NCBI RefSeq assembly: GCF_003344865.1
Contig: NZ_CP031165.1
Span: 4,779,910-4,843,909 of the forward strand
Source: Euzebya pacifica
GTDB taxonomy: Bacteria > Actinomycetota > Nitriliruptoria > Euzebyales > Euzebyaceae
Direction of reading: 5' to 3'
DNA length: 64,000 bases
How positions within the stretch are numbered: the first letter of the stretch is position 1; the number at the start of each line of letters is the position of its first letter. Under the pieces are notes generated by a model. That model saw only the letters and a program-made list of their open reading frames with translations, did not search any database and was not told the origin of the DNA. Positions 6,765 to 37,017 of this stretch are shown piece by piece. The position numbers and the translations under genes are program-made.

Positions 6765-6849
6765 TGAACCTACCACCGTGTCGGGTCTAGGTTCATCAAT
6801 ACCCCGCAAAGAGGGTCACGCAGCCGCGCCTTCACGAGGAGCCGAACCA

Positions 6850-8079
6850 ATGACGAGCGTCGCCACCCCACCCGCGATGGAGGACTTCGAACGCTTCGCC
6901 GCCGATGATCCGACCGTCGACCGCCACGACCTGTTCCGCCGCTGCCGCCACGACGCGCCGTTGTTCTTCAGCCCGCGGTTGGACGCCTGGGTGCTGTCGC
7001 GCTACGACGACGTCAAGGGCGTCCTGGCCGACGAGGAGCGCTGGGCCACCCTGCGAGAGGGTCCGGGCGCGCCGGTGTACGGCCCCTCGATCCTGCAGTG
7101 GCAGGGACGGGAGCACCAGAAGAAGGGCGGCATCGTCGCCCGTCGGCTGCGCAGCCCCAAGGCCGTGGAGTCCTTCGATGCCTTCGTCGCCGACACCGCC
7201 CGGCGGGTGGCTGACGAGGTTGCCAACGCCGACGGGCCGGTTGACCTCAAGAGCGAGTACGCCATGTGGATCCCGCTGCTGGCCATCGGCGAGCTGCTGG
7301 GCATCGAGGACGCCCACCGGTTCCGTGAGTGGTACGACGACATCGCCGCCGGTGGGGTGTCCTCGATCGGCCATCCCGAGAAGCGCGCGCGGGCCTTCGA
7401 GGCGGTCGCGGACCTCAAGACCTTCCTCGACCCGATCATCGCCGAACGGCGCAAGGACCCCGGCGAGGACCTGCTGTCGGACCTGTGCAGCGCCACCTAC
7501 GACGGCGAGCCGCTGCCGGTCGAGCAGATCCTGGCCTTCACCGCCTTCCTGCTGACCGCCGGCGTGGAGACGACCGAGCGGGCGCTGTCCAGCCTGTTCG
7601 TGTACCTGTTCAGCGACCCCGAACGGTGGCAGGCCCTCCGCGACGACCCGTCGCTGGTCGGCTCGGTCATCGCCGAGACCCTGCGGGTGTTCCCGCCGGT
7701 GCACGGCCTGACGCGCCGGGCAACCCAGGACGTGGAGGTGCACGGCACCCAGATCGCCGAGGGGTCACGGATGGTCGTCCTGCTGGCGTCGGCCAACCGG
7801 GACGAGGAGGTGTTCGCCGAACCGGACATCTTCGACTTCACCCGGTTCGCCGAAGCGCCGGAGCGGCAGTTCACCAACGCCGGGACGATCCTGCCGTTCG
7901 GTGCCGGCCGGCATCACTGCACCGGATCGCAGCTGGCCCGTACCGAGCTGCTGCACGGCGTCGGCGCCCTGGTCGATCGGGTCGCCGGCGCGACGTTCGT
8001 GGGCGGCGAGCCGCCCGTCCCGGAGGGGTTCCTGCTGGTCTCCCCCTCCCGCGTCGACGTGACCCTGCAGCGCGCGTGA
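6850..8079 (+). CDS. Cytochrome P450
   Basis: A 409-residue soluble bacterial P450 that inserts one oxygen atom into a substrate using external ferredoxin electrons. The I-helix oxygen-binding motif is AGVETT (237-242), the ExxR motif is ETLR (276-279), and the haem-binding loop is FGAGRHHC with the ligand Cys357. The ATG at 6850 follows AGGAG by about eight bases. No ferredoxin or ferredoxin reductase gene is nearby, so electrons must come from elsewhere. It is followed within 45 bases by an NTF2-fold gene and then a two-domain unknown gene, probably one transcript. Subfamily and substrate cannot be assigned from motifs. Confidence 0.92.
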   Translation: MTSVATPPAMEDFERFAADDPTVDRHDLFRRCRHDAPLFFSPRLDAWVLSRYDDVKGVLADEERWATLREGPGAPVYGPSILQWQGREHQKKGGIVARRLRSPKAVESFDAFVADTARRVADEVANADGPVDLKSEYAMWIPLLAIGELLGIEDAHRFREWYDDIAAGGVSSIGHPEKRARAFEAVADLKTFLDPIIAERRKDPGEDLLSDLCSATYDGEPLPVEQILAFTAFLLTAGVETTERALSSLFVYLFSDPERWQALRDDPSLVGSVIAETLRVFPPVHGLTRRATQDVEVHGTQIAEGSRMVVLLASANRDEEVFAEPDIFDFTRFAEAPERQFTNAGTILPFGAGRHHCTGSQLARTELLHGVGALVDRVAGATFVGGEPPVPEGFLLVSPSRVDVTLQRA

Positions 8080-8689: not shown

Positions 8690-9526
8690 GTGCCCGACCA
8701 GCAGACCGTCGTCCACACCTCACCTCGTGGGCGTGTGGTGGCGTGCGACTCGGCCTACCACGTGGCCGCGGCGAACCGGGACCGCGACGTCGTCTGCAAC
8801 GCCTCCTACTCCGGGGTGCTGCCCGCCCGGTTCATCGCCTCGCACCGCCCGCGCGGGGCGATAGGGATGGACTGCGGCATCGGCATGGACGGCGCCGGCA
8901 TCGCAGGCCTGTGGTACCTGGAGGCGCTGGACATCCCCGGGGCGGCGGTCGACGTGATGACCGTCGAGCTCGGCAACGGCGTGGACCTGTTCGACCGGGC
9001 GGTCATCTCGCGGCTGAACGAACCGGCCCGGCGGTGCGGGGTCCGCGAGGGCATGCCCGCGCGTGAGGCGGCGCTGCTGATGCTCGAGCACGACCCGGGC
9101 AGCGTCGACGCGCCGTCGGCCATCACCAACCGGACGGTGGTGCACACCGCAGCCGATGGCCGGCAGGTCGTGTGCACGGACTCGATCGCCTTCGGGGAGG
9201 AGGAGGACCGGGGACGCAACGTCCTGTGCACCGCCGGTCACACCGGCCGTTCGGCGGTGCCCTACCTTCGCGACGTCGCGCCGCACGGGTTCATCTGCTC
9301 GGACGGCGGCTGGGGTCGCGACGGCTCCGGCACGGCGGGCCTGGCGATCGTCGAGGCCGACGGCCTGGCCGGTGCCACCGTGGACGCCCGCACCGCCCGC
9401 ATGGGCGACGGCCTGTCCACCTGGGCCGACGGCACGATCAGCGCCGCCAACAGCCTGGCCGTCGCCCGCGGGGTCGCCGTGGGCATGTCGGCCCGCGAGG
9501 CGGCGGTGCGGCTGCTCGAGGGCTGA
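8690..9526 (+). CDS. Two-domain protein of unknown family (paralogue of 36102-36968)
   Basis: I do not recognise the family. With a GTG start at 8690 it has 278 residues; an in-frame GTG at 8645 is possible and neither has a strong ribosome site. The protein is a tandem duplication. Residues about 5-130 and 145-278 align, sharing a TVVHT beginning, then a core (GVLPARFIASHRPRG / GRSAVPYLRDVAPHG), a glycine-rich loop (DCGIGMDGAGIAGL / DGGWGRDGSGTAGL), AVD/TVD, a GNG or GDG turn, then IS..N and GM.AREAA..LL. No signal peptide or membrane segment is seen. It is next to a CoA ligase (convergent, 9562) and behind a P450; its paralogue is translationally coupled to a DUF35/CoA-ligase operon. Confidence 0.75.
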   Translation: MPDQQTVVHTSPRGRVVACDSAYHVAAANRDRDVVCNASYSGVLPARFIASHRPRGAIGMDCGIGMDGAGIAGLWYLEALDIPGAAVDVMTVELGNGVDLFDRAVISRLNEPARRCGVREGMPAREAALLMLEHDPGSVDAPSAITNRTVVHTAADGRQVVCTDSIAFGEEEDRGRNVLCTAGHTGRSAVPYLRDVAPHGFICSDGGWGRDGSGTAGLAIVEADGLAGATVDARTARMGDGLSTWADGTISAANSLAVARGVAVGMSAREAAVRLLEG

Positions 9527-9561: not shown

Positions 9562-11208
9562 TCAGGCGGGTTGGCGGGTGCGGTCGGCGGTGTCGGGGGT
9601 GACGCCGTCTGTGCGGAGCTCGCGCTTGCGGATCTTGCCCGACGGGGTCATCGGCAGGGCGTCGACGACGCGGACGTAGCGGGGGATGGCGAAGTCGGGC
9701 ACGCGGTCGGCTGCCCACGCCCACACGGTGTCGGCGTCGATGGTGGCGCCGGGGCTCGCCACGACGACGGCCATGACCTCGTCCTCCCCCGCCTCGTGAT
9801 CGGCGGGGACGGCGATGACGGCGCACTCGGCGATGTCGGGGTGGGCCAGCAGGGGTGACTCGACCTCGTAGGAGGAGATGTTCTCGCCCCGCCGGCGCAG
9901 CGCGTCCTTCAGCCGGTCCACGAAGTAGAACCAGCCGTCGTCGTCGCGCCGCAGCCCGTCTCCGGTGTGGAACCACAGGTTGCGGAAGGCCTCGACGGTC
10001 TTCTCCGGCATGGCGTAGTAACCCAGCGTCGTGATCCACGGTGCCCTGGGCCGGACGACCAGCTCGCCCACCTCACCGACCGGGACCTCCTCGTCGGTCT
10101 CGGGGTCGACCAGCCGGATGTCGAACCACTCGGCGTTGGCCAGCCCAGCCGCTCCCGCCGGCCGGTCCACGCCGTAGGGCGTCATGATCGGCATGGAGGT
10201 CTCGGTCAGCCCGAAGACCTCCACGAACGCCTCGACGCCGAACCGGTCCCTGAACGCGTCGACGTAGCTGGCGGTCGGGGCGGCGAAGATGCAGCGAAGG
10301 TCGTTGTCGGCGTCGTCCTCCCTCGCCGGCTGCTTCCACACGAAGTCCATCATCACGCCGACGAAGTTGGTGACGGTCGCGCGGGCGTCGCGGATCCGGT
10401 CGGTCCAGCGGGTGGCGGAGAAGCGGGTGTGCAGCACGAACCGGGCCCCGGCGATCAGCGCTGGGTAGGCCGCGAGGAACTGGGCGTTGCCGTGGAACAG
10501 CGGCCCCATCACGAGGTAGGTGTCCTCGTCGGTCAGGCGGGTCAGGCTGACGCACTCGTCGGCGAAGAAGTACATGTGGGCGTTGGCCATCACGACCCCC
10601 TTGGAGGGGCCGGTGGTGCCGCTCGTGAAGAGGATGCCGACGGGGTCGCTGGCGGCGGGGTCGGGCAGGTCGGTGCGGGCCTCGTCGGCGGCCAGGGCGG
10701 CCCATGGCTCGGCGTCCCAGCCGGCAGCGCGGAGCGTCTCGCACGCCGTCGCGGCTTCCTCCGGGTCGCCGAGCACGGCGAAGCGACGGATGCTGCTGGC
10801 GGCCTCGGGGATGGCGACGAACCGGGCGGCGAACCCGGCGTCGATGACCGCGACGGTTGGCCCGGCGACCCGCACCTGGTGGGCCAGGAAATCCCCCAGG
10901 TAGGAGGTGTTGATCGGCACCTCGACCATGCCGGCCATCGCCGCGCCGAACCACGACAGGACGTAGGCGGCGGAGTTGCCGGCCATGATGAGCACCCGGT
11001 CGCCCACCTCGGCGACGTCGAGCAGACCGGTGGCGATGCGGGCCGCGCGGTCGTGGACCTCGGCGTAGGTCAGCGCCACCCCTTCCTCCGGGCAGTCGAG
11101 GTAGATGCGGTCGCCGTGCGTCTCGGCGCGGGCACGCAGGACGCGCGGCAGCGTCCACTCCCCCCGGTCGGTGAACGTGGGGACCATCTCGTCGTAGACC
11201 GCGGTCAC
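9562..11208 (-). CDS. ATP-dependent acyl-CoA synthetase (AMP-binding, class I adenylate-forming)
   Basis: A 548-residue enzyme that activates a carboxylic acid to its CoA thioester via an acyl-adenylate. The phosphate-binding loop is ILFTSGTTGPSKGV (about residues 198-211), the A5 motif is GLTET, the A7 region is WFHTGDGL, and the C-terminal catalytic lysine lies in PSGKIRKREL. It resembles the CaiC-like branch. The GTG at 11208 overlaps the stop of the preceding enoyl-CoA hydratase (GTGA), so both are coupled. The acid substrate is not evident, but the pairing with a BadI/MenB-like hydratase suggests a cyclic or branched acid. Confidence 0.9.
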   Translation of the reverse strand: MTAVYDEMVPTFTDRGEWTLPRVLRARAETHGDRIYLDCPEEGVALTYAEVHDRAARIATGLLDVAEVGDRVLIMAGNSAAYVLSWFGAAMAGMVEVPINTSYLGDFLAHQVRVAGPTVAVIDAGFAARFVAIPEAASSIRRFAVLGDPEEAATACETLRAAGWDAEPWAALAADEARTDLPDPAASDPVGILFTSGTTGPSKGVVMANAHMYFFADECVSLTRLTDEDTYLVMGPLFHGNAQFLAAYPALIAGARFVLHTRFSATRWTDRIRDARATVTNFVGVMMDFVWKQPAREDDADNDLRCIFAAPTASYVDAFRDRFGVEAFVEVFGLTETSMPIMTPYGVDRPAGAAGLANAEWFDIRLVDPETDEEVPVGEVGELVVRPRAPWITTLGYYAMPEKTVEAFRNLWFHTGDGLRRDDDGWFYFVDRLKDALRRRGENISSYEVESPLLAHPDIAECAVIAVPADHEAGEDEVMAVVVASPGATIDADTVWAWAADRVPDFAIPRYVRVVDALPMTPSGKIRKRELRTDGVTPDTADRTRQPA

Positions 11209-11987
11209 GAGCTGGAGCCCTTCGGCTCACGGCCGGGCCACTGGGGTCGGCGCTTCTGCATGAAGGCGCTGGCACCCTCGACCATGTCGTCGCTGCCGAT
11301 GGCCTGCACGAGCATGCCGAGGCCCTGGAGCATGTTGTCGCGGGAGGCGTTCCACCACAGGTTGCTGCTTACCTTGGCGATCTCCAGGTAGCGGGGGCTG
11401 TTGGCCAGCAGGTCGTCGGCCCAGCGGGTGACGGCGTCCTCCAGCTCGTCGTGGGGGACGACCTCGTTGACCCAACCCCACTCCGCGGCGGTGGCCGCGT
11501 CGTAGCGACGGCAGAGGAAGCTGACCTCCTTGGCGCGCTTCTCACCGATCTGGGCGGCCAGCAGGTTGGTGCCACCGAGCACCGGGGCGCTGCCGACCTT
11601 GGGGCCGGTCTGCCCGAAGGTGGCCCGGTCCGAGGCGATCGCCAGGTCGCAGGCGACGACGAGCTCGTTGCCGCCGCCGGCCGCCGCACCGTTGACGGCG
11701 GCGATGACCGGGAGAGGCGAGTTGCGGATCTCGTCGGTGAACCGCAGCGAGTTGTAGAACATCCCCCGCAGCTCGGCGGGGTCGGGGTCCTGCAGGTTGG
11801 CGAGGAAGCCGCCGGCGCAGAACGCCTTGTCCGTGCCGGTGATGACGATCACGCCGGCATCGGCTGCGTCACGGATGGCGTGGATCAGCTCGTCGGCCAT
11901 CGCCTGGTCGTAGGCGTTCATCCGGTCGGCCCGGTTCAGCCTGATCCAGGCCACCTCGCCCCGCCGCTCGCTGACCACGTCCGTCAT
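11205..11987 (-). CDS. Enoyl-CoA hydratase/isomerase family (BadI/MenB-like)
   Basis: A 260-residue crotonase-fold enzyme. The oxyanion-hole segments are KAFCAGGFLA and NGAAAGGGNELVVACDLA. The central part (GPKVGSAPVLGGTNLLAAQIG, then AKEVSFLCRRYDAATAAEWGWVNEVVP) resembles naphthoate synthase and 2-ketocyclohexane-carboxyl-CoA hydrolase more than straight-chain hydratases. This suggests ring cleavage or C-C bond chemistry; that is inference. The ATG at 11987 has AGGA upstream; a longer frame to 12050 would run through the operator-like site at 12039. It is first in an operon with the CoA ligase and divergent from an acyl-CoA dehydrogenase. Confidence 0.85.
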   Translation of the reverse strand: MTDVVSERRGEVAWIRLNRADRMNAYDQAMADELIHAIRDAADAGVIVITGTDKAFCAGGFLANLQDPDPAELRGMFYNSLRFTDEIRNSPLPVIAAVNGAAAGGGNELVVACDLAIASDRATFGQTGPKVGSAPVLGGTNLLAAQIGEKRAKEVSFLCRRYDAATAAEWGWVNEVVPHDELEDAVTRWADDLLANSPRYLEIAKVSSNLWWNASRDNMLQGLGMLVQAIGSDDMVEGASAFMQKRRPQWPGREPKGSSS

Positions 11988-12038
11988 CTGCTGTCCTGTC
12001 TGTGTGTCGTTCGACTCGAGCCTCGGCTCTAGCATACG

Positions 12039-12055
12039 ATTAGTGATCATAAATA
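12039..12055. promoter_or_regulatory. Operator-like site related to TATTCATGAGCATAGAT
   Basis: On the reverse strand this 17-bp AT-rich stretch reads TATTTATGATCACTAAT. It matches the sites at 37018, 39402 and 51243 over most positions and sits midway between two divergent catabolic genes. It is the weakest of the four copies. Confidence 0.4.
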
Positions 12056-12113
12056 GGGTGCCGTGTCGGCGCCAAGCTGCGACGGGCCCATCATGGGTCG
12101 AGGAGCCACGTTG

Positions 12114-13262
12114 ATGGAGTTCGAGCTACCGGAGCGGTACGCCGCGATCCGTGAGGAGGCACGCGGTGTCGCCGCCGGCATCGCGGATGTCGCGGTCGAG
12201 GCCGACGGGCTGAGCGACCGGATCCACCCCGACGTCCTCGCCGCGCTGCGATCCAGCAACCTGACCGAGCTGATGGTGCCGAAGGTCCACGGCGGCCGGT
12301 TCGACGACGTCGACCCGCTGGCGGTGTGCGTGGCCCGCGAGGGGCTGATGGGGACCTCGTCCCACCTCGACTCGTTGTTCGCCCTGCAGGGCATCGGCAG
12401 CTACGCCATCACCCGTGGCGGGTCCGCCGAGCAGCAGGCGCGGTGGCTGCCGGCCGTCGGCCGGGCCGAGGTCCTGGCGGCGCTGGCGCTGACCGAGCCG
12501 GTGGCCGGGTCGGACCTCAAGTCGATGACGACGACGCTGACCGAGACCGCCGACGGACTGGTCGTCAACGGCGAGAAGGCCTTCATCTCCAACGCGGGGC
12601 ACGCCAGCTTCTACACCGTGCTCGCGAAGGAGGGCGAGGGGTTCTCCGTCGTGCTCGTGCCGGCTGACGCCGAGGGGATCACCTTCGGGCCGACCCCGCC
12701 GATCATCGCCCCCCATGTGCTGGGCTCGGTGACGCTGGACCACGTGGTGGTGGATCCGGCCAACCGGCTGGGCGAGCCCGGCCGTGGGTTCGACCTCGTG
12801 CTGTCGACCCTGGCGGTGTTCCGCGTGTCGGTGGCCGGCGCATCGATCGGCCTGGCCGAGGCGGCGCTGCGCGAGGCGACCCGGCACGCCAACGAACGGG
12901 TGCAGTTCGGCCGTCCGCTGGCACGGCTGGGTGCCGTGGCGGCGTTGCTGGCCGACTCGTGGACCGACCTCGAGCAGGCCCGGTTGCTGACCTATCGGTC
13001 GGCGGCCCGGGCCCGGCAGGACCCGTTGTCGGCGCTGCCCCACTCCTCCATGGCCAAGCTGGCCGCATCGGAGGCGGTCGGTCGGATCGTCGACCGGTGT
13101 GTGCAGGTGATGGGCCGCTGGGGGCTGGTGGCCGACTCGGTGGTCGAGCGGGCCTACCGGACGGCGCGGCCCATGCGGGTCTACGAAGGGGCGTCGGAGG
13201 TGCTGCGGCTGGGCATCGCCAAGGCGCTCGGCGACGAGTACCTGGACGAGGTGGAGGCCTGA
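12114..13262 (+). CDS. Acyl-CoA dehydrogenase
   Basis: A 382-residue FAD-dependent acyl-CoA dehydrogenase that introduces a 2,3 double bond. It has the FAD-contact strands (ALALTEPVAGSDLKSM, then VNGEKAFISNAGHAS), ERVQFGRPLARLGAVAALLAD in the C-terminal helical domain and a glutamate in RVYEGASEVLRLGIAKALG at the usual catalytic-base position. The ATG at 12114 has AGGAG at 12101-12105. Its TGA stop shares bases with the ATG of the next SDR (TGATG), so the two are co-translated. Divergence from the hydratase/ligase operon suggests one pathway under a shared operator. Confidence 0.9.
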   Translation: MEFELPERYAAIREEARGVAAGIADVAVEADGLSDRIHPDVLAALRSSNLTELMVPKVHGGRFDDVDPLAVCVAREGLMGTSSHLDSLFALQGIGSYAITRGGSAEQQARWLPAVGRAEVLAALALTEPVAGSDLKSMTTTLTETADGLVVNGEKAFISNAGHASFYTVLAKEGEGFSVVLVPADAEGITFGPTPPIIAPHVLGSVTLDHVVVDPANRLGEPGRGFDLVLSTLAVFRVSVAGASIGLAEAALREATRHANERVQFGRPLARLGAVAALLADSWTDLEQARLLTYRSAARARQDPLSALPHSSMAKLAASEAVGRIVDRCVQVMGRWGLVADSVVERAYRTARPMRVYEGASEVLRLGIAKALGDEYLDEVEA

Positions 13263-32082: not shown

Positions 32083-32937
32083 TCAGCGTTCGCCGTAGTC
32101 GTAGAACCCCTTGCCGGCCTTCCTTCCGAGGTGGCCGGCGGCAACCATGTTGCGCAGGCCCACGGTGGGACGGAAGCGGTCACCGTGGGCCTCCGCGAGG
32201 GACTCGACGGCATGCAGGTAGGTGTCCAGGCCGTTGAAGTCACCCAGCTCCAGCGGGCCCATCGGGAAGTTGAACCCCAGCTTCATCGCCGTGTCGATGT
32301 CCTCGGCGGTGGCCACCCCCTCCTCCAGCATGCGCAGGCATTCCATCCGCAGGATCGCGTAGGCGCGGGAGGTGATGAACCCCGGGCTGTCCTTGCGGCA
32401 GACCACGACCGTCTTGCCCAACCCCTCGGCGAACGACTGCGCCCGCTGCAGCGCCTCGTCACCGGTCGCCAGGCCCCGGACCAGCTCGCACAGCTTCATC
32501 AGCACCGGCGGGTTGAAGAAGTGCATGCCGACCAGCCGGTCGGCCGCATCCCCCAGCGCTGCGCCGATGGAGGTGATCGACAGCTGGGAGGTGTTGGTGC
32601 CGATCAGCGCGTCGGCCGGGGCGGCGGCCACCGCGGCGGTCAGGACCTCCTGCTTGAGGGCCAGCACCTCGGGCACCGCCTCGACCACGACGTCGACGTC
32701 AGCCACCGACCCGGCCAGGTCGGTGGTCCAGGTCAGGCGACCACGGACGGCGTCGGCTTCCTCCGCCGTCATCCGGCCCTTCTCCACCAGCTTGCCCAGC
32801 GAGAACTCGACGGCCTTCCGGCCACGGTCCAGCGCCGCGTCGTCGATGTCGCGGACTGCCACGTCGTGGCCGGCCATCGCCGACAGCTGGGCGATCCCGC
32901 TGCCCATGATCCCGGCTCCCAGCACTGCGACCTTCAT
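32083..32937 (-). CDS. 3-hydroxyacyl-CoA (3-hydroxybutyryl-CoA) dehydrogenase
   Basis: A 284-residue NAD-dependent dehydrogenase. MKVAVLGAGIMGSGIAQLSA is the Rossmann start with GxGxxG, GTNTSQLSI and GMHFFNPPVLMKLCELV carry the active-site Ser/Asn and catalytic His, and PGFITSRAYAILRMECLRML begins the helical dimerisation domain. It oxidises 3-hydroxyacyl-CoA to 3-ketoacyl-CoA. It is the last gene of the operon running from 36968. The ATG at 32937 is preferred over an in-frame upstream start because the Rossmann strand should begin close to residue 1. Confidence 0.92.
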   Translation of the reverse strand: MKVAVLGAGIMGSGIAQLSAMAGHDVAVRDIDDAALDRGRKAVEFSLGKLVEKGRMTAEEADAVRGRLTWTTDLAGSVADVDVVVEAVPEVLALKQEVLTAAVAAAPADALIGTNTSQLSITSIGAALGDAADRLVGMHFFNPPVLMKLCELVRGLATGDEALQRAQSFAEGLGKTVVVCRKDSPGFITSRAYAILRMECLRMLEEGVATAEDIDTAMKLGFNFPMGPLELGDFNGLDTYLHAVESLAEAHGDRFRPTVGLRNMVAAGHLGRKAGKGFYDYGER

Positions 32938-32977
32938 CGGTTGTTCCGTTCCTCGTTGGTGGTCCATCGGTGGTTGC

Positions 32978-34135
32978 TCACGCCCCCAGCAGGAGCGTGT
33001 TGTGGTACTGCGCGCCGGATCCGGCCCCGGTGACCAGGGCCACCTCGGCGTCGGTGACCTGCCGCTCGCCCGCCTCGCCTCGCAGCTGGTGCACGGCCTC
33101 GACGACCTTCAGCGTCGGGCCGCCCCAGCCGATGTGGCTGTAGGAAAGCAGGCCCCCGTCGGGGTTGACCGGCACGGGCGACCCCTCGCCGATGCCGACG
33201 TCGTGGACGTAGGCAGGCGCCTCACCCGGGGGGCAGAGGCCGGCGACCTCCAGCTGGCGGAGGATCTCGAAGCTGTTGATGTCGTACAGCAGCGCAACAT
33301 CGACGTCGGTCGGGTCCACCCCGGCCATGCGGCGGGCGTCGGCGGCGGCATCGCGCCCGACGGTCCACACCTCTTCGTGGCGAGCAGGGTCGACGTACTG
33401 CTGGCGGTGCCACTCGCTGGCCCCGCCCAGCACCCGAACCGGTGCCCGCGTGTCGGCGGCCCGGTCGGCGGAGGTGATGACCATCGCCGCCGCACCCTCG
33501 GTGGCCAGGCACAGGTCGAGGAGGGTCAGCGGCGAGGCGATCATCGGCGCGCCGAGCACGTCCTCGGCGGTGTGGGGCCCCTTGCCGAACATGACCGCGT
33601 CCGGATTGGCGTGCCCGCGGTTTCGCACCGCCGCGGCGGCCTCGGCGGCCCCCTGCCGGTAGTCGGGATGCAGGTGGAGCTGGCGCTGGGCGACCATCGC
33701 GAAGTGCACGGCCGTGAAGGCACCCCACGGGGCGACGAACTCGTTGTCGGGCCGGGTGTAGGCCGCCACCGCCCCGCCCGAGCGGATCGCGGCCTGCCCA
33801 CCGACCACCAGCACGGTGTGGCACAGGCCCGCGGCGATCGCAGCGGCGGCGTCGAGCACGGCTGGCACCCCCTGCGGGTAGGTGTCCTGCACCCATCGCA
33901 GCGGATGGCCGAGCAGCGACGTCCAGTCCACCGAGCCGGGGTGCATGACCGTCCCACCGGGACCGGGCCATCGACCGGCGATGCCGTCGACGTCGGCCGG
34001 GGTCAACCCTGCGTCGGCCAGGGCGCCCATCGCTGCCTCGAGGCAGGCCGACAGGGCCGTCCGGTCCAGCTGCTTGGCCTGTGCGGTGGCGTGCACGCCC
34101 ACCACTCGGGCCTGTTGGAGGGGGCTGATGGTCAC
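32978..34135 (-). CDS. Thiolase-like lipid-transfer protein (Ltp2/SCP-x type, probable aldolase)
   Basis: A 385-residue thiolase-fold protein. The usual nucleophile motif (CxSG) is absent: the matching helix reads WVQDTYPQGVPAVLDAAAAI with no Cys. The C-terminal part keeps VPVNPDGGLLSYSHIGWGG, the equivalent of the thiolase GG/GH region. This pattern fits the Ltp2-like branch, which together with a DUF35 protein makes retro-aldol lyases that remove side chains from steroid-type CoA esters. A DUF35 gene lies three cistrons upstream in the same operon, supporting that reading. The 3-bp gap to the CoA ligase gene implies coupled translation. Confidence 0.85.
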   Translation of the reverse strand: MTISPLQQARVVGVHATAQAKQLDRTALSACLEAAMGALADAGLTPADVDGIAGRWPGPGGTVMHPGSVDWTSLLGHPLRWVQDTYPQGVPAVLDAAAAIAAGLCHTVLVVGGQAAIRSGGAVAAYTRPDNEFVAPWGAFTAVHFAMVAQRQLHLHPDYRQGAAEAAAAVRNRGHANPDAVMFGKGPHTAEDVLGAPMIASPLTLLDLCLATEGAAAMVITSADRAADTRAPVRVLGGASEWHRQQYVDPARHEEVWTVGRDAAADARRMAGVDPTDVDVALLYDINSFEILRQLEVAGLCPPGEAPAYVHDVGIGEGSPVPVNPDGGLLSYSHIGWGGPTLKVVEAVHQLRGEAGERQVTDAEVALVTGAGSGAQYHNTLLLGA

Positions 34136-34138
34136 GGC

Positions 34139-35683
34139 CTAGACCTGCCGGTCAGTGGACCAGCGGGCGCTGCGGAGGCTGGCCTTGTCGATCTTGCCGA
34201 CGGCGTTCTTGGGCAGGCTGTCGACGCGGACGACGGTCTCGGGGACCTTCAGCGACGACAACCCCTCCTGCGTGCACCAGGTCTGCAGGTCGGGCAGGTC
34301 GACGGTGTCGCTGCGAAGTGCGACCACGGCCTCGATCGCCTCGCCCCAGCGCTCGTCGGGGACGCCGATGACGGCGACCTCCAGCACGTCGGGGTGCCGG
34401 TGGATGACGGCCTCGACCTCGCTCGGGGCGATGTTGTAGCCGCCCCGGATGATGATGTCCTTGACCCGGTCGACGATGTAGAGGAACCCGTCGGCGTCGA
34501 CGGTGGCGATGTCGCCGGAGCGGACCCATCCGTCGACCAGCGTCTGGGCGGTCCGCTCGGGCTCGCCGTAGTAGCCCTTCATCATGTAGGGGGCGGCGAA
34601 GATGACCTCGCCCCGTTCGCCGGTGTCGACGTCGCGGCCGTCGGCGTCGACGACGCGCACGTCCATCAGGTAGGAGGACTGGCCGGCCGACCCGAACAGC
34701 TCGGGGCGGCCGTCGAGGGCGGCCAGGTGGTCGGCCTTGCGCAGCATGGTGCCGATGGAGGCGACCTCGGCCATGCCGTAGAGCTGCACGAAGATCGGGC
34801 CGAACCGCTCGACCAGCGCTCGGGCCTTGTCCGGGGCCATGGGGGCGGCGCCGTAGCCGACGGTGACCAGCCCGTCCAGCGCCGTCGAGCCTGCGGGGAT
34901 GCGGTCGAGCAGCCGGTACAGCTGGGTGGGGACGAGGTAGGTGTGGGTGGCCCGGTGGTGGGCGACGGCGTCGACGAACGATTGCGGGTCGAAGCCGCGG
35001 CTGTCGACGAGCCCGACGGCGGCGCCGACCATCATGCAGGGCACCAGGGTGATGTTGACCGAGGAGTTGTGCGGGATGGCGACCAGGTACCGGCTGGTGT
35101 GGTCGATCTCGTACTCCATGCACGCGACCGGCGCGTGCTGCATGACGCGGGAGTGGTCGAACCACACCCCCTTGGGGGTGCCGGTCGTGCCGCTGGTGTA
35201 GACGATGCAGAACTCGTCCTCGGGCCGGACCTCGTGCAGCGTGGCCGGGTCGGTCGTGGCGGCGCGGTCACGCCTTGCGGCCCATCCCTCCTGCCCGGGG
35301 TCGTCGAGCTCCAGCACGGGGATGCCGGCGGGGTCGGCGACCTCGTGGGCCAGGTCGGCCAGGTCGGCGGAGGCGATGATCACCGACGGTTCGGCGTTGC
35401 CGAGGATGTGGGAGAGGTCGGTGGCGGACAGCCGGAAGTTGAGGCCGACGTAGACCATGCCGGCCTTGGCGACGCCGGCCAGGACCTCGCAGACCTCGAG
35501 CCGGTTGGGGGCGAGGAGGGCGACCCGGTCGCCGCGGTCGACGCCCATGTCGGCCAGCAGGTGGGCGACCTGGTTGGAGCGGCGGTCCAGCTCGACCCAG
35601 GTCAGCTCGCCGGTGTCGTCGAAGGCGGCGACCCGGTCGGGGTACCGGCGGGCGGAGCGGGTGACGGTGAGGCCGACGTTCAT
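34139..35683 (-). CDS. Acyl-CoA synthetase (AMP-binding)
   Basis: A 514-residue class I adenylate-forming enzyme: phosphate loop IVYTSGTTGTPKGV (about residues 160-173), YGMAEVAS as A5 motif, WVRSGDIATVDADGFLYIVDR for A7-A8, and the C-terminal lysine in KNAVGKIDKASLR. It makes a CoA thioester, the entry step to the operon's beta-oxidation enzymes. The ATG at 35683 overlaps the DUF35 stop (ATGA). A longer in-frame start at 35767 would lie inside DUF35 and is rejected. Resembles FadD3/FadD17-like ligases in pattern only; the symbol is not assigned. Confidence 0.9.
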   Translation of the reverse strand: MNVGLTVTRSARRYPDRVAAFDDTGELTWVELDRRSNQVAHLLADMGVDRGDRVALLAPNRLEVCEVLAGVAKAGMVYVGLNFRLSATDLSHILGNAEPSVIIASADLADLAHEVADPAGIPVLELDDPGQEGWAARRDRAATTDPATLHEVRPEDEFCIVYTSGTTGTPKGVWFDHSRVMQHAPVACMEYEIDHTSRYLVAIPHNSSVNITLVPCMMVGAAVGLVDSRGFDPQSFVDAVAHHRATHTYLVPTQLYRLLDRIPAGSTALDGLVTVGYGAAPMAPDKARALVERFGPIFVQLYGMAEVASIGTMLRKADHLAALDGRPELFGSAGQSSYLMDVRVVDADGRDVDTGERGEVIFAAPYMMKGYYGEPERTAQTLVDGWVRSGDIATVDADGFLYIVDRVKDIIIRGGYNIAPSEVEAVIHRHPDVLEVAVIGVPDERWGEAIEAVVALRSDTVDLPDLQTWCTQEGLSSLKVPETVVRVDSLPKNAVGKIDKASLRSARWSTDRQV

Positions 35684-36105
35684 GCCGGCGCCCCCTCGCC
35701 GTGGTGCAGGTCGACATTCGGGGTCGGGGTGAAGACGGGCAGACGGCGTCCGTCCCGGTCCTCCCATGCCACGGTGACGCGCTGGCCGATGTACACCTCG
35801 GCCGGATCGCAGCCGACGATGTTGGTCATCAGGTGCCAGCCCTCGTCGAGGTCGACGATCGCCACGACGTAGGGGACGTCACGGTCGCCGGTCGGCGAGC
35901 GGTGGACGACGGAGTGGCTGTACACCGTCCCGAGCCCGTCGCTGCGCTGCCAGGTCAACGCCTCGGACTGGCAGGCGGGGCAGGCGATGCGGGGGGTGAA
36001 GAGGTTGAGCGCGCAGTTGTCGCAGACCTGGCGAACCAGCTGCCGGTCGGCCGCACCACTCCAGAACGGTTCGGTGAGGGGCGAGGGGGTCGGGAGGCCG
36101 ATCAC
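35680..36105 (-). CDS. DUF35 zinc-ribbon/OB-fold protein
   Basis: A 141-residue protein with an N-terminal helix (TEPFWSGAADRQLVRQ), a four-cysteine zinc ribbon (CDNCALNLFTPRIACPAC) and an OB-fold (GTVYSHSVVHRSP, VPYVVAIVDLDEGWHLMTNI, IGQRVTVAWED). DUF35 proteins bind acyl-CoA through the ribbon and OB parts and act as partners of thiolase-fold enzymes such as Ltp2-like aldolases. The matching thiolase is two genes on. The GTG at 36105 overlaps the upstream stop (GTGA) and the end overlaps the ligase start (ATGA), so it is tightly tied to both. Confidence 0.88.
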   Translation of the reverse strand: MIGLPTPSPLTEPFWSGAADRQLVRQVCDNCALNLFTPRIACPACQSEALTWQRSDGLGTVYSHSVVHRSPTGDRDVPYVVAIVDLDEGWHLMTNIVGCDPAEVYIGQRVTVAWEDRDGRRLPVFTPTPNVDLHHGEGAPA

Positions 36106-36968
36106 GACGTCGGGACCTCGGCCAGCAGCAGATGGGCGGCCTGCTTGGCGGGCATGCCGACCTCGACGCCGCGGCGGCGGGCCGGTTCGTTGCAGGCGGC
36201 GATGATGCCGTCGACATAGCTGGACTGGGCGTCGCCGATGGCGGCGGTCATGGCCGAGACGCTGGCACCGGCAAGGCCGTGCTCCTCCACAATCGCCAAA
36301 CCGGCGGTGCCCGAGTCGTTCTTGGCGCCTCCACCGTCGGAGCAGATGAAGCCCCACGGCCGGAACTCCAGCAGGAAGGAGGCGCCCGACCGGCCGGTGT
36401 GGCCGGCGGTGACCAGGACGTTGCGGTCACGGTCCTCGGGCCGGGCGAAGATGATGGAGTCGGTGACGACGACCTGGCGGCCGGTGGGTGAGGTCTCCAC
36501 GACCTCCCGGCGGACCTTGGTGCCGACCTCGGTGTCGCTCGGGTCGGTGGCCAGCAGGCGGCGGGCGGCCTCGGCGACCGGCATGCCCGGGGAGACCCCG
36601 CACTGTTCGGCGAGGATGTTGACCCGGCTGACGACCCCCTCGTCGTGGAGGTCCTGCCCGTTGCCGAGCTCGGCGGTGGCCCCGTCAGCGGCGACGGCGG
36701 GGATGCCGAGGGCTTCGAGGTAGTACAGCCCCTGGATGCCCGCGGCGTCCTTGCCGATCCCCCCGTCGTGCCCGATGACCGCTCGCGGGCGGTGGGGGGC
36801 CATCAACCGCGCGGGCAGCACCCCGATGTAGGACGCGGCGACGACCACGTCGTGGTCGGTGTTGCTCGCGTCGACGTAGCGGGCGGAGTCCATCGTGACG
36901 ACGCGCCGGCCCCCCTCCTCGACCACGACCTCCTGCGGATGCGGCTCGGACTCCAGCAGGTCACCCAT
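36102..36968 (-). CDS. Two-domain protein of unknown family (paralogue of 8690-9526)
   Basis: A 288-residue protein of the same unrecognised family as 8690-9526. Both halves repeat a core: SYIGVLPARLMAPHRPRAVI, GHDGGIGKDAAGIQGLYYLE, then TAELGNGQDLHDEG versus GHTGRSGASFLLEFRPWGFI, CSDGGGAKNDSGTAGLAIVE, then TAAIGDAQSSYVDG, each ending in N..A...GV..GM...AA..LL. No signal peptide is present. ATG 36968 has GGAGGAG six bases upstream. It is first in an operon with DUF35, CoA ligase, thiolase-like aldolase and 3-hydroxyacyl-CoA dehydrogenase and overlaps DUF35 by four bases. A role in handling a CoA ester or its aldol cleavage is the best guess from context only. Confidence 0.78.
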   Translation of the reverse strand: MGDLLESEPHPQEVVVEEGGRRVVTMDSARYVDASNTDHDVVVAASYIGVLPARLMAPHRPRAVIGHDGGIGKDAAGIQGLYYLEALGIPAVAADGATAELGNGQDLHDEGVVSRVNILAEQCGVSPGMPVAEAARRLLATDPSDTEVGTKVRREVVETSPTGRQVVVTDSIIFARPEDRDRNVLVTAGHTGRSGASFLLEFRPWGFICSDGGGAKNDSGTAGLAIVEEHGLAGASVSAMTAAIGDAQSSYVDGIIAACNEPARRRGVEVGMPAKQAAHLLLAEVPTS

Positions 36969-37017
36969 GACGCTCTCCTCCACACGACTCGACGATCACA
37001 TCGCCAAGCGTAGAGGA

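Follow-up and report, generated by a model that had tools for sequence, protein, structure and literature searches.

The closest solved structure to the protein described here is TA1206 (PDB 1qw2), a representative of DUF1805/COG3377 (PMC9425974). Its solved chain comprises 102 residues in a single domain, unlike the double-domain product of gene A, and no function or activity for TA1206, DUF1805 or COG3377 has been reported in the literature found. A second described system, the MaoC steroid hydratase ChsH1-ChsH2, offers a parallel in organisation: only one of its MaoC partners keeps the His/Asp dyad, while the other accommodates the steroid (PMC11321319). MaoC is a different fold, so the comparison with gene A is an analogy and no homology is claimed. 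The locus considered here lies in a 64,000-nucleotide stretch of the Euzebya pacifica genome, the whole of which is referred to as the window.

Gene A, its internal repeat and its paralogue

Gene A (8690..9526, + strand) is an open reading frame with a GTG start codon, encoding a tandem-domain protein of 278 aa. Comparison with a 92%-identical orthologue from a congeneric genome gave a dN of 0.046 and a dS of 0.37 (dN/dS about 0.12), with 8/15/71 differences at codon positions 1/2/3, values which support its status as a genuine coding gene under purifying selection. As delimited by alignment and AlphaFold2 modelling, the N-terminal repeat spans residues 5-133 (8702..9088, + strand; DSAYH, SYSG, MDCGIGMDGAGI, MTVELGN, ISRLN) and the C-terminal repeat residues 148-277 (9131..9520, + strand; DSIAF, GHTG, SDGGWGRDGSGT, TARMGD, ISAAN). 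The two are identical at 53 of 130 positions (41%), with one single-residue gap, and their Smith-Waterman score of 213 lies far above those of 1000 shuffles (31.8±5.8, maximum 56). An AlphaFold2 model built with 17 double-domain sequences (pLDDT 94.0, pTM 0.90) shows one and the same succession of strands and helices in residues 4-130 and in residues 147-276, as opposed to two unrelated folds, and a model of a single-domain relative (pLDDT 93.8) follows it too. The internal tandem duplication proposed in the original prediction is therefore borne out, with all of its quoted motifs present, and gene A is made up of one domain present twice in tandem, the two copies being ancient.

A paralogue with the same two repeats and the same layout, gene B (36102..36968, - strand), identified as an open reading frame and by alignment, is 57% identical to gene A and lies 27 kb away on the opposite strand; its ATG start is at 36968, a longer form from a GTG at 36983 being possible. 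The N-terminal halves of A and B are 56% identical and the C-terminal halves 60%, as against only 41% between the two halves of gene A, which argues that the domain duplication is not recent and predates the divergence of A and B. In a quick tree, the N- and C-halves of the gene A/B clade cluster together (support 90), a grouping that suggests a second duplication within this clade. Trees forcing all N-halves or all C-halves into one clade were not worse (p-AU 0.67 and 0.62), so that one and two duplication events are both compatible with the data. In a congeneric genome (L105:9425-11143), A and B are neighbours on the same strand, inside a single ligase/hydratase/thiolase cluster, in contrast to their separation on opposite strands in the window.

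Predicted fold

The best solved-structure match of both models is DUF1805 (PF08827, COG3377), represented by 1qw2, with a Z of 8.0 and an rmsd of 2.7 over 87 of 102 residues for gene A, and a Z of 7.5 and an rmsd of 3.0 over 89 residues for the single-domain model. A Z of about 8 can reflect a common structural arrangement; Foldseek gave an E of only 0.066 against 1qw2 and no match at E <= 0.001. The C-terminal A..xG...G stretch of DUF1805 resembles that of the gene A domain, and the DUF1805 profile scores 25.6 bits on gene A and 24.3 bits on gene B, below the Pfam gathering cut-off of 29.5. Comparison of an 84-residue TA1206 fragment with the domain profile was not significant (hhalign probability 2.6% and 0.4%; hmmsearch 0.8 bits), and by eye neither the SHGG motif nor the NDAGVGKDxAGI segment is present in the fragment. 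As the sequence link is not significant, the gene A domain, predicted to be an alpha/beta domain, is described as DUF1805-like in fold and not as a DUF1805 member.

It is hardly credible that gene A is a member or fragment of DUF1805 or of the Y-family polymerases (IMS, PF00817), as automatic annotation would suggest. The 25.6 bits of the DUF1805 profile on gene A and IMS scores of 25.6 and 38.4 bits, which exceed the IMS cut-off of 23.2, speak for such an identity, but the best IMS stretches span no more than about 30-40 positions of the 148, at the A..xGV..GM...EA stretch, and the DUF1805 score falls short of its own cut-off. In other Actinomycetota, the DUF1805 profile also picks out this short stretch, there within long reading frames that are unrelated. 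Short coverage and the whole-domain model thus contradict both identities, and the polymerase assignment was rejected, as what is shared is a short stretch and not the full 148-position domain. This stretch lies near the end of each half and matches IMS above the Pfam cut-off, the best match in gene A being at window positions 8993-9079; gene B is matched as well, and both genes could be mislabelled by automatic annotation. Residues 25-71 of Dbh/Dpo4 superpose on the C-half of gene A over 47 residues (Z 3.8).

An unnamed domain family

The repeats of genes A and B belong to an unnamed domain family, here termed SHGG/NDAG. A recognition profile made from 63 sequences, all of single-domain proteins and none from the window, matched the N- and C-halves of gene A at 2e-23 and 3e-26 and both halves of gene B at 2e-27, with no match among shuffled controls. 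A scan of the 6.4 Mb genome with a similar profile, from a narrower alignment than the first one (A1, too divergent for the scan), found exactly four domains, a pair in each of genes A and B. Each half has direct homologues in the single-domain proteins (E 2e-23 to 2e-27). These proteins measure about 130 aa, carry the motifs DSIT, SHGG, NDAGVGKDxAGIAAL, SARIGD and GVISHxN and, unlike gene A, have one domain, a complete Ser-His-Gly-Gly and often an acid-sugar operon or TRAP/Bug transporter setting.

In the other genomes searched, single-domain proteins were found in Rubrobacter, many Burkholderiales (which provide most of them), Alphaproteobacteria and a small number of further phyla. Double-domain proteins came from Actinomycetota, Proteobacteria and haloarchaea, and the 88 loci analysed comprise 65 single-domain and 23 double-domain cases. 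Searches of Pfam and NCBIfam gave no model covering the domain, a PDB sequence search gave no usable family for gene A, no relative turned up in the viral contigs searched, and no characterised family member was found. The family is widespread yet unnamed, and its members are probably breakdown enzymes. The existence of single-domain homologues supports the earlier proposal of a pseudo-dimer made in one chain, as does the finding that operons with RuBisCO-like and OiaK-like genes carry the single-domain form in bacteria and the double form in haloarchaea.

Conserved residues and asymmetry between the halves

Residues are numbered after the single-domain sequence heading alignment A4. Ser38-His39-Gly-Gly, Asn59, Ala61-Gly62, Gly69, Ile93-Gly94 and Gly103 are invariant in all 65 single-domain proteins, in which Asp20, Asp60 and Asn109 are nearly so. 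The near-invariant polar set of these relatives (Asp20, Ser38-His39-Gly-Gly, Asn59-Asp60-Ala-Gly, Arg92/Asp95, Ser106 and Asn109) sits, in the predicted structure, where strands end or where loops directly follow them, the positions at which catalytic residues are found in Rossmann-like folds. From this topology, the conserved residues of the gene A domain would be expected to meet in one pocket.

The gene A/B clade departs from this pattern. It comprises 12 proteins, from this genus, two Rhodococcus plasmids, Nitriliruptorales and Aminobacter. Ser38 is present in 12/12 of its N-halves and His39 in none (Tyr or Trp instead), whereas the C-halves keep His39 in 12/12 and Ser38 in 1/12; Asp95 occurs in 11/12 C-halves and in 1/12 N-halves, Asn replacing it in the other 11. 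In gene A itself the motif reads SYSG in the N-half and GHTG in the C-half, the complete Ser38-His39-Gly-Gly being absent from both, and by these residues gene A is placed on a diverged branch and not in the canonical single-domain-type subgroup. Asp60, Ser106 and Asn109 are still present in nearly all N-halves of the clade, which are therefore not wholly degraded. As the 12 proteins are related, the asymmetry may represent a single old event kept by descent. The loop difference pointed out in the original prediction (CGIGMD versus GGWGRD) holds up, the loop being the counterpart of the NDAGVGKD motif; the Asp60 of this motif is nevertheless kept in both halves, and the asymmetry lies at other positions.

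These observations bear on the suggestion of one active site per half. In 21 other double-domain proteins, most motif residues are kept in both halves, and two sites are plausible there from their sequences. For gene A such an arrangement is decidedly improbable: although Asp60 and Asn109 are present in both of its halves, Ser is confined to the N-halves and His to the C-halves with a consistency that extends over the 12 proteins, a complete Ser-His pair occurring only in the C-half of one member. An asymmetric pseudo-dimer fits gene A better.

Genomic context

In the window, gene A is preceded by a SnoaL-like gene (recognised by eye only) and by a cytochrome P450 gene on the same strand (6778..8079, +). 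An AMP-binding acyl-CoA ligase gene (9562..11208, -) is convergent with it, followed by genes for an enoyl-CoA hydratase/isomerase (11205..12050, -) and an acyl-CoA dehydrogenase (12063..13262, +). After gene B come a DUF35/ChsH2-type gene encoding an OB-fold and zinc ribbon (35700..36105, -; far end approximate), whose GTG start overlaps the gene B stop (GTGA), and then genes for an AMP-binding acyl-CoA ligase (34139..35767, -), a thiolase-like protein (Thiolase_C_1; 32978..34135, -) and a 3-hydroxyacyl-CoA dehydrogenase (32083..32967, -). The order B-DUF35-ligase-thiolase recurs in congeners and in the Rhodococcus plasmids. With its acyl-CoA, P450, DUF35 and thiolase clusters, the setting of both genes is catabolic.

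The overlap of gene B with the DUF35 gene raises the possibility, itself rather unlikely, that A and B are non-catalytic accessory or ligand-binding subunits whose conserved residues bind a ligand rather than convert it, for example by stabilising, or delivering substrate to, a DUF35-thiolase or ligase. PMC11321319 describes a DUF35 domain that co-purifies with its partner aldolase, and the motif erosion in the gene A/B clade and a nearest fold, DUF1805, without reported activity in the papers found point the same way. However, the single-domain family keeps a near-invariant polar set typical of catalysis, and many relatives are without a thiolase/DUF35 neighbour, being found in sugar-acid operons instead.

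Beside some relatives in Actinomycetota, Proteobacteria and haloarchaea lie genes for RuBisCO-like proteins, OiaK-like kinases and PGDH_C-type dehydrogenases; TRAP or Bug transporter genes also adjoin relatives outside the window. A RuBisCO-like gene stands beside 10/65 single and 3/23 double loci, these being raw counts without a background rate and with some flanks short. A recurring cluster of RuBisCO-like and OiaK-like kinase genes, often with a PGDH_C-type gene, carries the family in both bacteria and haloarchaea (L016, L026, L028, L035, L036, L096, L101, L102). It may represent a pathway different from the OiaX/OiaK one, because both enzymes scanned score well under the cut-offs of 700 (463 bits for the RuBisCO-like neighbour against the OiaX model, 448 bits for the kinase against the OiaK model). 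A gene that by eye resembles those of thiamine-diphosphate enzymes lies near seven double-domain loci (L044, L054, L058, L062, L078, L088, L090) and near no single-domain locus. Symmetric forms are found partly in sugar-acid operons and asymmetric forms in acyl-CoA clusters; function may therefore have shifted.

Proposed function

The reading preferred here, to which a probability of about one half is assigned, is that gene A codes for a catabolic enzyme built as a fused dimer in which, within the A/B clade, one half carries out catalysis and the other has been modified. The dimer would consist of two copies of the unnamed alpha/beta domain and act in organic-acid catabolism. Catalysis is likely to reside in its C-half, which keeps His39 and Asp95. 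The N-half retains Ser38, but Tyr stands in place of His39 and Asn in place of Asp95; its role is probably to give the substrate pocket its shape or to furnish the Ser. The substrates of the A and B proteins would be CoA esters or free acids arising in an acyl-CoA pathway, with the acyl-CoA dehydrogenase, the hydratase, the ligase, the thiolase and the DUF35 protein as presumed partners. Whereas the duplication, the family, the uneven motif loss and the neighbouring genes are observed and the fold is predicted, the enzymatic nature, the division of labour and the substrate class are inferred. Since the two copies in the A/B clade have lost different portions of their common motif, the pair is probably one lopsided unit rather than two equal halves.

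A more specific version, in which one half supplies Ser and the other His/Asp so that the two complete a single composite active site, is considered unlikely. Were it true, fusion would have allowed a symmetric dimer with two sites to turn into an enzyme with one site, serving a larger substrate, on a fold without assigned chemistry. For a single catalytic half, ChsH1-ChsH2 provides a documented parallel, with paired domains of which one is altered, there for a bulky substrate; it also shares with gene B an association with DUF35 (PMC11321319).

Significance

The findings delineate a family, present in Actinomycetota, Proteobacteria and haloarchaea, whose members are probably catabolic enzymes; it lies outside Pfam and NCBIfam coverage and now has a reproducible residue signature. 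The family is tied to two pathway types, acid-sugar operons with RuBisCO-like and OiaK-like genes and acyl-CoA/DUF35/thiolase clusters. The way Ser and His are split between the fused halves, itself conserved, provides a testable case of how a homodimer may become an asymmetric single-chain protein.
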